NCBI GenBank assembly: GCA_003116975.1
Contig: BGKB01000055.1
Span: forward strand, 124,001-188,000
Length of the DNA stretch: 64,000 bases
Direction: 5' to 3'
Source: Aurantiochytrium sp. KH105
Lineage: Eukaryota > Sar > Bigyra > Thraustochytrida > Thraustochytriidae
Made by a program: the position numbers and the translations under genes
Shown here: positions 1 through 41,439 of the stretch, piece by piece
How positions within the stretch are numbered: the first letter of the stretch is position 1
Layout of the letters: each line of letters opens with the position of its first letter
The notes under the pieces: model-generated
Databases searched by the model: none
What the model was told of the DNA's origin: nothing
What the model saw: the letters and a program-made list of their open reading frames with translations, nothing else

Positions 1-1915
1 TGATGCCATTGAGCATGTTTGAGTTTGGGTTGGCACCAGCGCTCAGCAAAAGGCGTGCAATTTCTTCGTTGCCTTGGTACACGGCAACGATGAGTGATGT
101 GCAGTTCCCCGCCATGCGATGATCTGGGTAAGCGTCGACGAGATCCAGGAGCACCGAAACTGTCTCGACTGCGCCATGCCGAACTGCTTCGCAGAGCATT
201 GAGGCGTTGGCGCCCTGGAGACCCGCATCAAGCCACTCGTCGGGGATGATGAGCGCATTATTCCAGCCCGAACAGCGCACATTTAGCCAACATATTAATG
301 CGCGAGCCACCCGTTCTGTCCCTCGCACGGTGCAGCATTTGTGCAACGCGCGAATCGCAAGCACAGTTGAGGTATGACCACCGAGCCGCTGCAACGATCT
401 TCGGAGATACTTTCGCACGTTATGCGCATTGCCATTCACAGTGGCAATGGCGAGGTGTCTTTGAAAGAGTGGCTCCAAGGCTTGCCACCCATCTGCTCCT
501 GCCGTGGCCTGCGCATTAATGTTCTGGTCATCTGGACGCCTGTTTGCAGAAAGGGTTTGAGTGGAAGAAGAGCGCGAGCTGTCGACACCCAAAAACATCA
601 TGTGGGGTACGGATTCGCTTGGCCCATCGCCAACTCGTTGACGTCGGCGTCGTCGCTGCTGTTGATTCGACGCGCTAACGATGGACCCTTGCTCTTGCGA
701 AATGGGTCCGGATTCCTGTGGTTCGTCTCTCTTGCGCTTCGCTAACGCTGCTTCGCCCGCTCGAGCCGCACGATCTCGTGCTCTTTCCAGTTTTCGCCGC
801 GCAGATTCGAGCCAGAGAAAAGCTCTGTATTCTGGCTGCGACAATGCAAAAGGGACGCCTTGCGCATGGCGGTTTCGATGTGGAAGAAGAGTTTCCTGTG
901 CAAGTTCAATGGCAGCCGCCACGCTCGAGTGTCTTGGTGGATTGAAGCGCAAAGCAGAGCGCGCAGATGCGTCTTGTCTCTTGCTTATCGCGACACTTAC
1001 CCTATCGTTATTTTCTTCTTCTTCTTGTACATGCTGGCCTCGATCTCTGCGACAGGGTGGAACTTGATGCAGGGTAGCGCTCGAAGATGATGATGATGAG
1101 GAAGAAGAAGATGAAGAAGAAGAAGACGTCGTAGCGACGCTCGGAAGAGGATATCTGTTAGGCATCAAAGCACCTTCATTACCTTGGTGGTCATTATTGT
1201 CGTTGTTGTCGTTGTTGTTGTTGCTGTTGTTGTTGTTGTTGTCGCCGCCGCTGTTGCTGTTGCTGTTGCCGTTGTTGTTGCTGCTGCTGCTACTACTGCT
1301 GACCCCCTTGTCAAACAGGTTCTTGCTAGCGTCGACACTTGTCTCCAGATTCTTGCGACCCTCTTGGGGCGAAGCGACATTCGTTCCCCTGCGTGATCGC
1401 TCGAAAGGAACAGATTCAGGAGACGAAGACGAAGCAGACGAAGAGGACACAGATGGAGATGAAGCTCGCGGGGACGACGACACAAAGGCGAGCGGGCGAG
1501 CTTCCCCTTCCCTCTTTCCCAAAAGCTGGCCATTGCCCCCCCGCGCGTGATCCTTGTGGACGTTGTTCGCCGCGGCCCCTTGCGCAGAGTCGCCCGCAGC
1601 GTGCTCTCCGGCGCTGGCCTCTTTTTTCCCGTGGTCGGGCTTGGACCCGAGCAGCTTGGCGACCCAGAACACCGAGTCGAGCGCCGCCACGGTGGCCGAG
1701 TCGCTCTTCCTCGCCGTGCGCGCGTCGCTCTCGGAGCGCGCCCGGCTCAGGCTCGCCCGCGCGCGCGTGCCAGCTGCGCGCGTGAACCCGAGTCCCATGG
1801 CGCCATCCTCCGCGCCCAGCGCGCACAGCGCCGCGCTCGCCGCGGACACCGCCTCTCTGCGCCGCGCCTCCGCGCCCTCTCCCCGCGCCCGCGCCCCCGC
1901 GCCGCGCCGCGCCAT
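1..1915 (-). CDS. Ankyrin-repeat protein, N-terminal part (3' end outside window)
   Basis: One reading frame is open from an ATG at 1915 to the left edge, about 638 codons, with an in-frame TAG just upstream of that ATG. Order of parts: an Arg/Ala-rich N-terminus; a Ser/Asn low-complexity stretch including a run of Asn/Asp and about 14 serines (about 1080-1300); an Arg/Lys-rich helical segment with WLESARRKLERARDRAA (about 760-840); then ankyrin-type helices such as TSLIVAVYQGNEEIARLLL followed by SAGANPNSN (about 10-110). Ankyrin repeats are protein-binding scaffolds, so the partner cannot be named. More repeats presumably lie beyond the left edge. The frame agrees at both ends (codons 1913-1915 and 2-4 are in phase). 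GTAAGT occurs inside the ORF near 1000 but the frame stays open, so I do not call an intron. The ankyrin assignment is good; function is unknown. Confidence 0.72.
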   Translation of the reverse strand, partial: MARRGAGARARGEGAEARRREAVSAASAALCALGAEDGAMGLGFTRAAGTRARASLSRARSESDARTARKSDSATVAALDSVFWVAKLLGSKPDHGKKEASAGEHAAGDSAQGAAANNVHKDHARGGNGQLLGKREGEARPLAFVSSSPRASSPSVSSSSASSSSPESVPFERSRRGTNVASPQEGRKNLETSVDASKNLFDKGVSSSSSSSNNNGNSNSNSGGDNNNNNSNNNNDNNDNNDHQGNEGALMPNRYPLPSVATTSSSSSSSSSSSSSSSSATLHQVPPCRRDRGQHVQEEEENNDRVSVAISKRQDASARSALRFNPPRHSSVAAAIELAQETLLPHRNRHAQGVPFALSQPEYRAFLWLESARRKLERARDRAARAGEAALAKRKRDEPQESGPISQEQGSIVSASNQQQRRRRRQRVGDGPSESVPHMMFLGVDSSRSSSTQTLSANRRPDDQNINAQATAGADGWQALEPLFQRHLAIATVNGNAHNVRKYLRRSLQRLGGHTSTVLAIRALHKCCTVRGTERVARALICWLNVRCSGWNNALIIPDEWLDAGLQGANASMLCEAVRHGAVETVSVLLDLVDAYPDHRMAGNCTSLIVAVYQGNEEIARLLLSAGANPNSNMLNGI

Positions 1916-37717: not shown

Positions 37718-37721
37718 CTAG
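37718..37721. repeat. Putative target-site duplication, left copy (CTAG)
   Basis: CTAG directly precedes the CCCTGGCTA terminal repeat. The same four bases follow the right terminal repeat. Confidence 0.5.
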
Positions 37722-37730
37722 CCCTGGCTA
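37722..37730. repeat. Left terminal inverted repeat
   Basis: CCCTGGCTA, exact inverse of 39759-39767. Subterminal TACCCGAAA copies follow at about 37743 and 37756. Confidence 0.75.
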
Positions 37731-38028
37731 GCGACACAAACTACCCGAAAAATTACCCGAAATTTTGGTCTTGCGACTTGTCCTAGCACCTTCAAAACAT
37801 CCCCGCGTGACTCAAAAATTTGTCCATGCAGGCTTCCCTCCAAGGGGATGGTTGTCCTAGAGTTTGAAATTTTGAGGATTAGTTTTGGTCGAAATTTGAG
37901 AGGGGATTGGTTTGGCGCTTGAAGCGAGGAAAGTGGTCTATTTGATCAAAATAGGTCTGGGTAGTGCCGCTACCCGAAATTGATTGGAAATTATATGGCT
38001 AAGACCCTCTTAGGGTATTTTTCGCTAA

Positions 38029-39617
38029 TCAAGATAGAAATTGCGTTGCGCTCGGAGAATCTGTTTTGCCGTGTTCGAATTTTTGCAAGTGCGCCAGATC
38101 CCCCCGAAACATGCCATTGAGGCCCGACAAGCGCCACGACAGGCCATGCAGAATCACATAAACATCATACGTCAGCGTGAGTTGCATATCTATCGCCTTC
38201 CGCAGAGTGAAAACGCGCATGGCAGTACTTGAATATGAAAGCCTGGCATCCCGTGCACCACTTTTGCGTCTTGTGAGGCTCTCTAGAATGCTCGCTGGGG
38301 TCTTTCCATGCTCGCACTTGACGCAGCGCACGATGAATTTGCGGCCTTTGGCCAGCAAGGTTTGCATGTGCGCTCCTTCTGTGCGGTTCGCCATGCCTGG
38401 GAGGCGCTTGCTCCTATCGTCCGTTGACCTCGTATTTGGGACCTCCTCGCATGGTTCCCCGGCTTCCGCAGTTCCATCTTCCTGGCAGACGTCGCCTCCT
38501 CCTCCAAACAACGCAATCAGACTCTGAGCAGGATCACTCAAGTTGATGCGCAGAGCCACCAGGAAGTCCTCGAATGAGATTTGCTTCTTTAGCGACGCCC
38601 GCGACGCCCAAGAGTTACATTGGCTCAATTTGTCTTGAAGCTTCGTCAGCTGTACGCATGGAAGCAGTTGTAGAAGATGTACTCAAGCCAGGCCAAGAAC
38701 ATGCCAGGATGATCGGATTGGGGCTCAGGCGGGCGGTCCGCCGCGCGCGACCTGCGAGCGTTTTCCGTACGGTGTCCACTCCGCCCATGGCATGGTTCCA
38801 GAACGAGCCCGCGACGGGAAGGATCCGTTCCGGTGGAGGGGTTCCATTTATGATGACGTCGTCGTTATGCCAATGCCAGAGCTGCAGATACTGCTCCTAG
38901 GTATGGTGATCTCGTGCAAAACCGAGGGGCTTGCTGTAGACGTCGGCGATGTGCGGAACGGGCTCGCCAGTGTCGATGTAGATGAATCCCAGGTACTCGT
39001 CGGCAAGCGCAGAGAAGTAGCGCCTCCAAGCCCGGCGCTGCGATGCCGAGAATCTGACGACCACAATCTGCATGATGTAGAAAGGATCCGCATACACCAA
39101 AAGGGGGCACGGCACGTAGGGACTCGAAGATTCAAAAACCGTGCCCCGCCAGCTTGATTGTGGGATACTCGTCGTTCTAGTACTCGTAATCATTCACGTC
39201 TTGCTCATCACCAGGGCCCTCGTCAATCTCATGTTCGCGCGTTCCAACTCCTCCTCTACGTCTGGTTTGTCCTTGACCTTCAGCGCTGCGAGGAGCTCGA
39301 CCTCCTCGTCATCGACCATCGCGCCATTTGCAACTTCGCGCTCCGGGCCACTGCGTGCTACGGGTTGCTGCACGAAGGACGAGGGCGCAGGAGCAGCCAC
39401 GGCACGTCCGCAGGGCGCAGCTCGCGCCGACGCGCGACGAGGGCTCGCTTACTCGCTGCAGCGTCGCAGCTTGAACTAGGCTTGCGAGTCTAACGACCGT
39501 GGTTAGCTGCGAGCAGCCTGCGCGAGCAGCTGTAGCGCCACGACAACCGGAGGAATTTCCGTGCAACTTTGCAAGGAGGAGCGGGGGCAATGTGGAGACC
39601 ATATCGCGAAATCGCAA
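38029..39617 (-). pseudogene. piggyBac-like transposase, fragmented
   Basis: Reading 5' to 3' on the minus strand, successive frames carry: MVDDEEVELLAALKVKDKPD (near 39310), then in another frame DEGPGDEQDVNDYEY, a stop, and NDEYPTIKLAGHGF (about 39135-39215), then in a third frame the block ending DEYLGFIYIDTGEPVPHIAD (38897-39100). After a stop the same frame continues EQYLQLWHWHNDDVIINGT and NHAMGGVDTVRK (about 38770-38890). Another shift gives AWLEYIFYNCFHAYS, and the last frame (38029-38628) runs from SQCNSW through FEDFLVALRINLSDP to a Cys pair in VRCVKCEHGKT. The order matches a piggyBac transposase C-terminal half. Several stops and shifts plus a shortened DDE region show decay. Confidence 0.7.
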
Positions 39618-39673
39618 GAATAAAGGAGACCCCGAAGGTATTTAAAGTAGGTTTTGTTTGGTCAACCGGAAAT

Positions 39674-39696
39674 TTCGGGTAGTGAGACTACCCGAA
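39674..39696. repeat. Subterminal palindrome, 10-bp arms
   Basis: TTCGGGTAGT, 3-base loop GAG, ACTACCCGAA. It lies 60 bp inside the right end of the transposon and is a candidate transposase-binding site. Confidence 0.85.
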
Positions 39697-39729
39697 CCTG
39701 CCGCCCATCGGGGAAAATGATTTGCCGAG

Positions 39730-39758
39730 AATTTCGGGTAGTGCCACTACCCGAAATT
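39730..39758. repeat. Subterminal palindrome, perfect 14-bp arms
   Basis: AATTTCGGGTAGTG and its exact complement around one central C, directly inside the right terminal repeat. Confidence 0.9.
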
Positions 39759-39767
39759 TAGCCAGGG
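39759..39767. repeat. Right terminal inverted repeat
   Basis: TAGCCAGGG, exact inverse of 37722-37730; followed by CTAG at 39768-39771. Confidence 0.75.
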
Positions 39768-39771
39768 CTAG
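39768..39771. repeat. Putative target-site duplication, right copy (CTAG)
   Basis: It matches the four bases at 37718-37721. It could instead be the outermost part of a longer inverted repeat, since CTAG is its own complement. Confidence 0.5.
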
Positions 39772-40031: not shown

Positions 40032-41439
40032 TCAAGAGAGCGTCAGGCTGGTCGCGCGGTCGCTGCCGTCGTCGTCGTCCTCCTCCTCGCTCCTATGCGA
40101 GGTCAAGGGTTCCTCCGATGGCTCAATGCGATGCAGGTCCTCGTGCGCTGCACTCCTGCTATCCTCGTTCGGGTGATGGTAGCGCGTAGAATGCAGCGTC
40201 TCCGCAGGATACGAGGGAGAACGGTGCATGTTCCCGTGCGCGCCGCCGTGCTCGTAATAGCTGTTGCGATACCCACCAAACGAATGCGGACGTTCCGTAA
40301 GGGCCACTCCAGCCGCTGGTGAGCCCGTGATGAGCTCGCTTGATCGCTCTGGGTCGTGGTCCCAGGCAAGCAGAGCCACGCCCACGGCCGTTGTCAAAAT
40401 ACCCACCGGCATGAGAATCTTGCTCTCCAGATCGAAACGATGAAACTCTTTGAAGAAGATGGCCGCGTACAGCGAACCGAGCACAATCATTGTTGCATTC
40501 ACAATCGGAACCACCACAAAGGCATTAAAGCGTGAAAGCGCTACATTCAGCATCGTCAGCTGGGCCAGCGCACAGAGCGAAGTCACCACAATCGCCACGG
40601 ACGGCACGAAACTATCAAAAATCGAACTGGAATGGGTCTCCACCGCCTCATCAAAGCTCTCGGCCATTGTCTTGGCGAAAACTTGCGTGCAGCTTCCCAC
40701 TGTTCCAACCAGTGCTGACGAGCACAAGCACTCGGCTCGAGCGTCCGAATGGAAAAACGCGATCGGGGCCAAGACCATCATGGCCAGCAAAATTATTGAC
40801 GTTGTCACGATAAAGGGCACCTCGCGAAACAAGTCCTCCAGCTCTTTCACCGTGAATGAAACCGTGTCGTGGTTACCTGACACAAGGACGACCGTTACGC
40901 CCACCAAAATGATAAAGGTGAATCCTACCTGGCGCGACGTGAACTCCTCGTGGTTCAGGATCCTTGCAAACCCAATGTTGAAGCAAATGTGCAGACCAGC
41001 AAATGGAATGGTCAAAGACTGCGCATTTCCGTTCATTTGTCGTTGTTGTTTAACGATTTACCACCCAACATTGCATCGTATCGCGTGCGTGCGTGCGTGC
41101 GTGAGTGAGTCAGCCAGTTAGCTCATGATCGAGGAAAAAGTAGATAGCTTCGCGTTGCAGATTTTAACTTACCGCATCCGCAAGGGTATAGGCCACAAGC
41201 GTCAAAACAGTATTAATCACGACCAGGCAGATCATTCCCGCCCACCATAATGGCCTACACACCAACGGCGTGGCCTTGTCTCCCTCCTCGACGGCAGATT
41301 CCTCAGTCGTGTAGCTGAGCTTGATGAGGTTATCGCCCAGCGACCCAAACAACGCAGCAAATATCGACAAGAGAACGCCTACCCACCAGAGGCTGTCCTC
41401 GTCGACGAGCGCCATCGCGACGCGTTCCCCTCGCGCCAC
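40032..41439 (-). CDS. NIPA-type magnesium transporter, two exons
   Basis: Exon 1 is 41173-41439 (89 codons), exon 2 is 40032-41018; together 417 residues. The intron (41019-41172, 154 bp) starts GTAAGT and ends GCGCAG, phase 0 on both sides, joining TLADA to SLTIPFAGLHICFN, which restores the family core where a Pro-rich helix is followed by FN. NIPA proteins are nine-helix members of the drug/metabolite transporter superfamily and move Mg2+. Visible: LLSIFAALFGSLGDNLIKLS in helix 1, then about eight more hydrophobic helices, including FNAFVVVPIVNATMIVLGSL typical of NIPA. The C-terminal 90 residues are hydrophilic and His/Ser/Glu-rich with an acidic DDDDGSD. The first ORF alone would end two codons into the intron. 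Subcellular site unknown. Confidence 0.87.
41019..41172 (-). other. Intron of the NIPA-type gene
   Basis: GTAAGT donor, CAG acceptor, 154 bp, phase 0. It contains a GTGC/GCAC tandem run (about 41085-41104). Confidence 0.85.

Follow-up and report, generated by a model that had tools for sequence, protein, structure and literature searches.

A decayed piggyBac-like transposon in Aurantiochytrium sp. KH105 and the NTAN target sites of its relatives

The window, meaning the whole analysed stretch of 64,000 nucleotides of Aurantiochytrium sp. KH105, reads as eukaryotic DNA, judged from its introns and gene make-up. At 37722-39767 it holds a 2046 bp element with the termini CCCTGGCTA on the left and TAGCCAGGG on the right and, as read in the sequence, CTAG on both flanks. 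A gene for a NIPA-type magnesium transporter neighbours it (window 40032-41036, minus strand; PF05653, E 1.3e-13). The parts of the element are as follows.

37718..37721, no strand: left target-site duplication CTAG (sequence; the empty site of contig C4 has one CTAG)
37722..37730, plus: left terminal inverted repeat CCCTGGCTA, then GCGACA (sequence and genome copies)
37742-37750 and 37754-37762, plus: two left subterminal TACCCGAAA repeats
37971-37979: additional left-side TACCCGAAA repeat
38168..38305, minus: relic of the Cys-rich C-terminal domain (tblastn with the L052 and L059 ORFs)
38293..38676, minus: relic of the region from the third Asp to the Cys-rich domain, in a different frame (tblastn)
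38652..38702, minus: short relic LEYIFYNCFHAY, in a third frame (tblastn)
38702..39115, minus: relic of the third-Asp block and the end of a putative YqaJ-like insert, with one TAG (tblastn)
38774..38788, minus: MGGVD motif with the third catalytic Asp, opposite piggyBac D447 via the family profile
39117..39367, minus: weak, tentative N-terminal relic in two frames, one with two stops (E 0.004)
39673-39681 minus, 39732-39740 minus and 39748-39756 plus: right subterminal TACCCGAAA repeats
39759..39767, minus: right terminal inverted repeat TAGCCAGGG
39768..39771, no strand: right target-site duplication CTAG (sequence; single CTAG in the C4 empty site)

In the 64-kb window CCCTGGCTA occurs twice, where 0.21 occurrences are expected, and these two are the inverted pair at the element ends; at least two are reached in 4 of 100 shuffles of the window, and judged from these counts alone the ends are only suggestive. 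The element is confirmed as real because many copies of both its left and its right end are found in the genome. TACCCGAAA is present six times in the element and nowhere else in the window, the right-hand repeats at 39732-39740 and 39748-39756 forming a palindrome that adjoins the element end. The terminal inverted repeat begins with CCC, a feature of piggyBac superfamily ends, and the ends of Trichoplusia ni piggyBac are likewise CCC. Among the end motifs given for piggyBac elements are CCCTT, CCCTC, CCCAT, and CACTA (PMC10813416).

The minus-strand reading frames are broken: matches to relatives switch frame between 39115 and 38168, with one TAG in the first stretch and, when another frame is followed over a greater length, two TGA. 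The relic at 38702..39115 is 68% identical, over 139 columns, to the ORF of the related copy L052, whose joined matches reach E 8.5e-82; overall, the 417-residue frame of the related copies is 62-68% identical to the window relic over the best stretch and, for L052, 42-43% elsewhere. Of the protein, the relic retains a clearly matching C-terminal part with the sequence WNHAMGGVD and, more weakly, an N-terminal part; the first and second catalytic Asp (D268 and D346 of piggyBac) were not found in it. Taken with the evidence below, the window element is very probably a decayed, non-autonomous copy of a piggyBac-type cut-and-paste DNA transposon whose relatives insert at NTAN.

A search of the 76-Mb assembly yields 43 exact left ends CCCTGGCTAGCNAC (135 matches at up to one mismatch, against 77 for a reversed-pattern control) and 44 exact right ends CCCTGGCTAAATTTCG (76 matches at up to two mismatches, against 9 for the control). 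The copies fall into three subfamilies with common ends and a distinct subterminal repeat: TACCCG, to which the window copy belongs (about 2.0 kb), CCGAACG (0.6-2.6 kb), and GGGACG (about 0.8 kb). The fetched DNA contains 48 ends of left type and 48 of right type, some of them chance matches, and these could be paired into 35 two-ended copies (6 TACCCG, 14 CCGAACG, and 15 GGGACG); near-matches such as C41:22748, C104, C113:218674, and C134 lie outside the fetched DNA and this pairing. Among the copies examined, none combines an intact full-length transposase with both ends.

The subterminal palindromes, as compared in the window (37742-37979 and 39673-39756) and at the right ends in L005 and L016, have a common frame AATTTCG...CGAAAT around a core specific to the subfamily (TACCCG, CCGAACG, or GGGACG); these cores give the impression that the binding sites and the transposases acting on them diverged in step. 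On contig C173 a GGGACG-type left end (L059, at 140814) stands beside a 331-residue transposase frame (ORF 671-1663, minus strand) that reaches the contig end, and a coding element of this kind may have given rise to the short GGGACG copies.

Identical 4-bp flanks occur in 25 of the 35 two-ended copies and a 5-bp match in none, whereas random re-pairing of left and right flanks over 10,000 trials gives a mean of 4.0 and a maximum of 11 matches. All 25 matched duplications have a central TA and are thus NTAN: TTAG (8), CTAT (4), ATAA (3), TTAT (3), CTAG (3, in the window, C83, and C150 copies), CTAA (2), ATAC (1), and TTAA (1). Set against the NTAN words of the window, counted with both strands pooled, TTAG/CTAA are over-used (10 against 2.0 expected), TTAA is near expectation (1 against 0.8), and an initial G or a final C is avoided, with 1 such word in 25 where the summed expected values give about 14. 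Over all 35 pairs, the central TA is found in 33 left flanks and in 28 right flanks. The ten mismatched pairs (C115, C127, C201, C21, C23, C24:225008, C274, C40, C89, and C97; N letters are involved in C201 and C274) presumably reflect mutation, assembly, or recombination.

Six joined flank pairs were searched for empty sites, and five are readable. For the window copy (contig C55), C4 has an empty site with one CTAG at 93% identity over the 260-base search, and the likeness extends 1.4 kb to each side (82% left, 93% right); a 31-base junction pattern for this site, at up to three mismatches, gave no match, C4 having a 1-base indel there. As the empty site keeps a single CTAG, the CTAG of the window is duplicated target DNA. 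The C26 copy has an empty counterpart in C154 with one ATAG (94%), the C41 copy, filled with TTAG, one in C16 with ATAG (94%), and the C83 copy, filled with CTAG, one in C85 with CTAT (87%), so that an outer base of the 4-mer differs between empty and filled in two of these four allelic-looking sites (87-94% identity over their 260-base stretches). The C8 copy, which looks to sit in an intron of a repeated leucine-rich-repeat gene, has a paralogous stretch in C51 with one CTAA (83%); the C24/C112 search aligned poorly at the junction and is too diverged to be informative.

Many genome matches occur as similar pairs on two contigs, and the assembly therefore seems to hold two haplotypes, C4 apparently being the other haplotype of the window region. 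The left flanks of the 35 two-ended copies all differ, and each of the four allelic-looking sites that were read lacks the insertion; this gives the insertions a heterozygous look and suggests that the family was active recently or that the genome is a hybrid.

An open frame of 417 residues is found in three copies of 2.57-2.6 kb (C8, C26, and C44), and 63 matches in the genome include open frames of 1000-1360 residues, four of which (1135-1362 residues) were examined. In L052 the 417-residue frame aligns to residues 889-1284 (37%) of a 1307-residue C152 protein, and another frame in that copy aligns to residues 11-158 (30%, E 1.9e-21); since these two frames match only the ends of the C152 protein, the L052 copy lacks the middle. 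That middle contains, by eye, IDDD and LDRGY, presumed to carry the first two catalytic Asp.

In Pfam, neither the window fragments nor the 417-residue ORF nor the long relative L064 has a match of note; with PF13843 (DDE_Tnp_1_7), L068 falls just under the cut-off (E 9.4e-5, 22.3 bits against 22.4), L066 has E 0.043, and L067 has no match to PF13843 and a weak one to zf-Tnp_2 (0.76). An NCBIfam search gave nothing relevant, and in single-sequence searches of the PDB the 417-residue ORF has no match and L064 one irrelevant-looking match at 0.033. A profile of six family proteins (A1), searched against 177,635 PDB sequences, has only two matches below E 0.01: T. ni piggyBac (6x67, E 3.4e-4, residues 433-522), with the family Asp aligned to D447, the third catalytic Asp of the superfamily in its GGVD block, and piggyBat (9c0f, E 0.002), mainly over the Cys-rich C-terminal domain that is also a superfamily feature (residues 520-576) and weakly over the GGVD block; the next match, 4wsb, is at 0.15. 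A C-terminal profile (A4) again places 6x67 and 9c0f first (E 0.012 and 0.019), and in viral contigs it gave 41 pattern matches, none of them confirmed. Comparing the family, profile against profile, with three PF13843 proteins encoded in this assembly gives a probability of 5.5 (E 0.0069). By these sequence comparisons the transposase is piggyBac-like; it is not filed as canonical piggyBac because the strict TTAA target was tested and does not hold, 24 of the 25 matched duplications being other words.

The preliminary description of this locus, made from the window alone, had proposed a broken piggyBac-like transposase, which the frame-shifted relics, the MGGVD motif, and the profile matches to piggyBac and piggyBat in the PDB bear out; its suggestion that the fragments be compared with DDE_Tnp_1_7 in Pfam drew a blank, and the link to piggyBac came from the family profile. 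That CTAG is duplicated target DNA also holds, given its single occurrence in C4 and the other 4-mers at other copies. What does not survive is the idea of a piggyBac variant with its fixed target changed from TTAA to CTAG: the three copies with CTAG on both sides speak for it, yet 22 of the 25 matched duplications are other NTAN words, the common feature being the central TA. Varied bases in place of CTAG, named in advance as telling against that idea, are what the copies carry, and a CTAG-specific target, already refuted, is now highly improbable. CTAG is one example of a loosened NTAN target, not a new fixed target. The alternative put forward at the same time, that CTAG belongs to a longer terminal inverted repeat CTAGCCCTGGCTA and that there is no target-site duplication, could appeal to the seven exact CTAGCCCTGGCTA words in the genome, but most fetched ends show other 4-mers before CCCTGGCTA and the empty sites retain one copy of the 4-mer; it is likewise already refuted and has practically no likelihood left.

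A loosened NTAN target could also be mimicked by decay, if ancestral TTAA duplications had mutated after insertion; the copies read are indeed defective and 10 of 35 pairs differ. This would need parallel mutation to the same non-TTAA word on both sides in 24 copies, and the five readable empty sites hold NTAN words other than TTAA, which leaves decay a negligible chance. TA-centred sites are not unique to piggyBac; short TA-centred duplications are also made by PIF/Harbinger elements and the IS5 group (YTAR sites). A relative of one of these, or of another DDE superfamily of this kind, with MGGVD arising by chance, would fit the absence of a PF13843 match from the element's own ORFs. Against it stand the PDB profile matches to piggyBac and piggyBat, which peak in separate domains, the near-threshold PF13843 score of L068 and the weak zf-Tnp_2 match of L067, and the combination of CCC ends with a 4-bp duplication, found in 25 of 35 copies and at the five readable empty sites, which agrees with piggyBac; we regard membership of another superfamily as unlikely.

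In the long relatives of the transposon, a YqaJ/lambda-exonuclease-like segment appears to be inserted between the second and third Asp, its placement after the second Asp being our own reading of C152, L066, and L068. The region before the third Asp matches PF09588 weakly in two of four members (best E 0.0011, 19.7 bits against a cut-off of 22), and the sole PDB match of a profile of the insert (A3) is an exonuclease (3syy, E 1.8). The 417-residue frame of the transposon retains the end of this region, with LKIKT opposite LEIKT, and its transposase may once have had the full insert. The long frames of 1135-1362 residues are L064/L065 (C152:125900-132700), L066 (C13), L067 (C73), and L068 (C65), and further ones in the genome are apparently paired on two contigs. 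An inverted-repeat scan of L064 with one flank showed no recognisable transposon ends, and some of the long relatives may for this reason be host genes derived from a transposase. In the open-licence literature no paper on piggyBac with YqaJ was found by title.

The profile alignment places the W-N before GGVD in the family opposite Y439-N440 of piggyBac, where N440 makes a base-specific contact with A-2 and a pocket that includes Y439 holds T-3 of the TTAA hairpin, excision requiring no specific flank (PMC7351741). W-N at these positions would agree with a target in which the central TA stays fixed and the outer bases are unconstrained, and the retained Asn before MGGVD (N440 in piggyBac) would account for the fixed TA. 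In the mechanism that we propose, a related transposase would act in trans, bind the CCCTGGCTA ends and the subterminal repeats, and cut; the ends would then be joined with a 4-bp stagger to NTAN targets, the first base rarely G and the last rarely C, leaving a 4-bp duplication around each insertion. Relative to piggyBac, the family would still recognise the inner T and A and would no longer recognise the outer ones; both the protein that moves the element and the 4-nt hairpin chemistry are what we infer.

T. ni piggyBac (6x67) has in common with the family the 4-bp duplication with central TA and, by profile, the GGVD block, and piggyBat (9c0f) the Cys-rich C-terminus; the family differs from the former in using TTAA once in 25 and in the YqaJ-like insert that its long related proteins seem to have. 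Departures from TTAA are known as a minority: about 2% of piggyBac insertions, mainly at CTAA/TTAG and ATAA/TTAT, in Li et al. 2013 as reported in PMC6651600, which relates that TA was thought always to be kept at such sites and itself lists non-TTAA junctions without TA; and 2.4 and 7.2% in cell assays (PMC3849761). Pokey of Daphnia has duplications of TTAT, ATAA, and CTAA alongside TTAA, and in the view of its authors the middle T and A may be the only essential bases, but 88% of its sites are TTAA and about 12% are not (PMC3849761), in contrast to 1 of 25 TTAA here. PiggyMac of Paramecium, a domesticated piggyBac transposase, makes TA-centred 4-base 5' overhangs of the same NTAN geometry (PMC3077386); it is a host excision enzyme, whereas the family consists of mobile copies that make NTAN duplications. 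The animal piggyBac types with odd duplications, mainly of clade E (PMC10813416), are named exceptions among types, unlike a single family with an NTAN spectrum and empty sites. Minority NTAN use by piggyBac elements (2-12%) and TA-centred cutting by PiggyMac are therefore already known, and 24 of 25 non-TTAA duplications are a strong form of the known deviation; searches of an open-licence literature collection yielded no description of an NTAN-targeting piggyBac family, and in the papers cited here deviations from TTAA appear only as minority or exceptional cases.

Tentatively, and with somewhat more doubt than confidence, these considerations suggest a piggyBac-type lineage that gave up TTAA for general NTAN and is moved by a transposase whose catalytic region has, between its second and third Asp, a built-in lambda-exonuclease-like nuclease domain; such a lineage would represent a mobile counterpart of TA-centred cutting by PiggyMac. 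Genome engineering makes wide use of piggyBac, and contacts that form a network around the unpaired TTAA account for its TTAA rule (the latter in PMC7351741). In the natural family described here the inner TA is preserved and the outer bases are given up, with Asn at the position reading A-2, and this offers a direct test of the contacts that set the target. The family also provides a mobile relative for considering how TTAA transposition could have given way to the TA-centred cutting seen in ciliate PiggyMac.

The genome further contains six matches over the PF13843 cut-off (L008-L013, on C193/C261, C95/C278, and C80/C11), apparently three genes each on two contigs; the three scanned have long N-terminal extensions and are domesticated-looking piggyBac genes.
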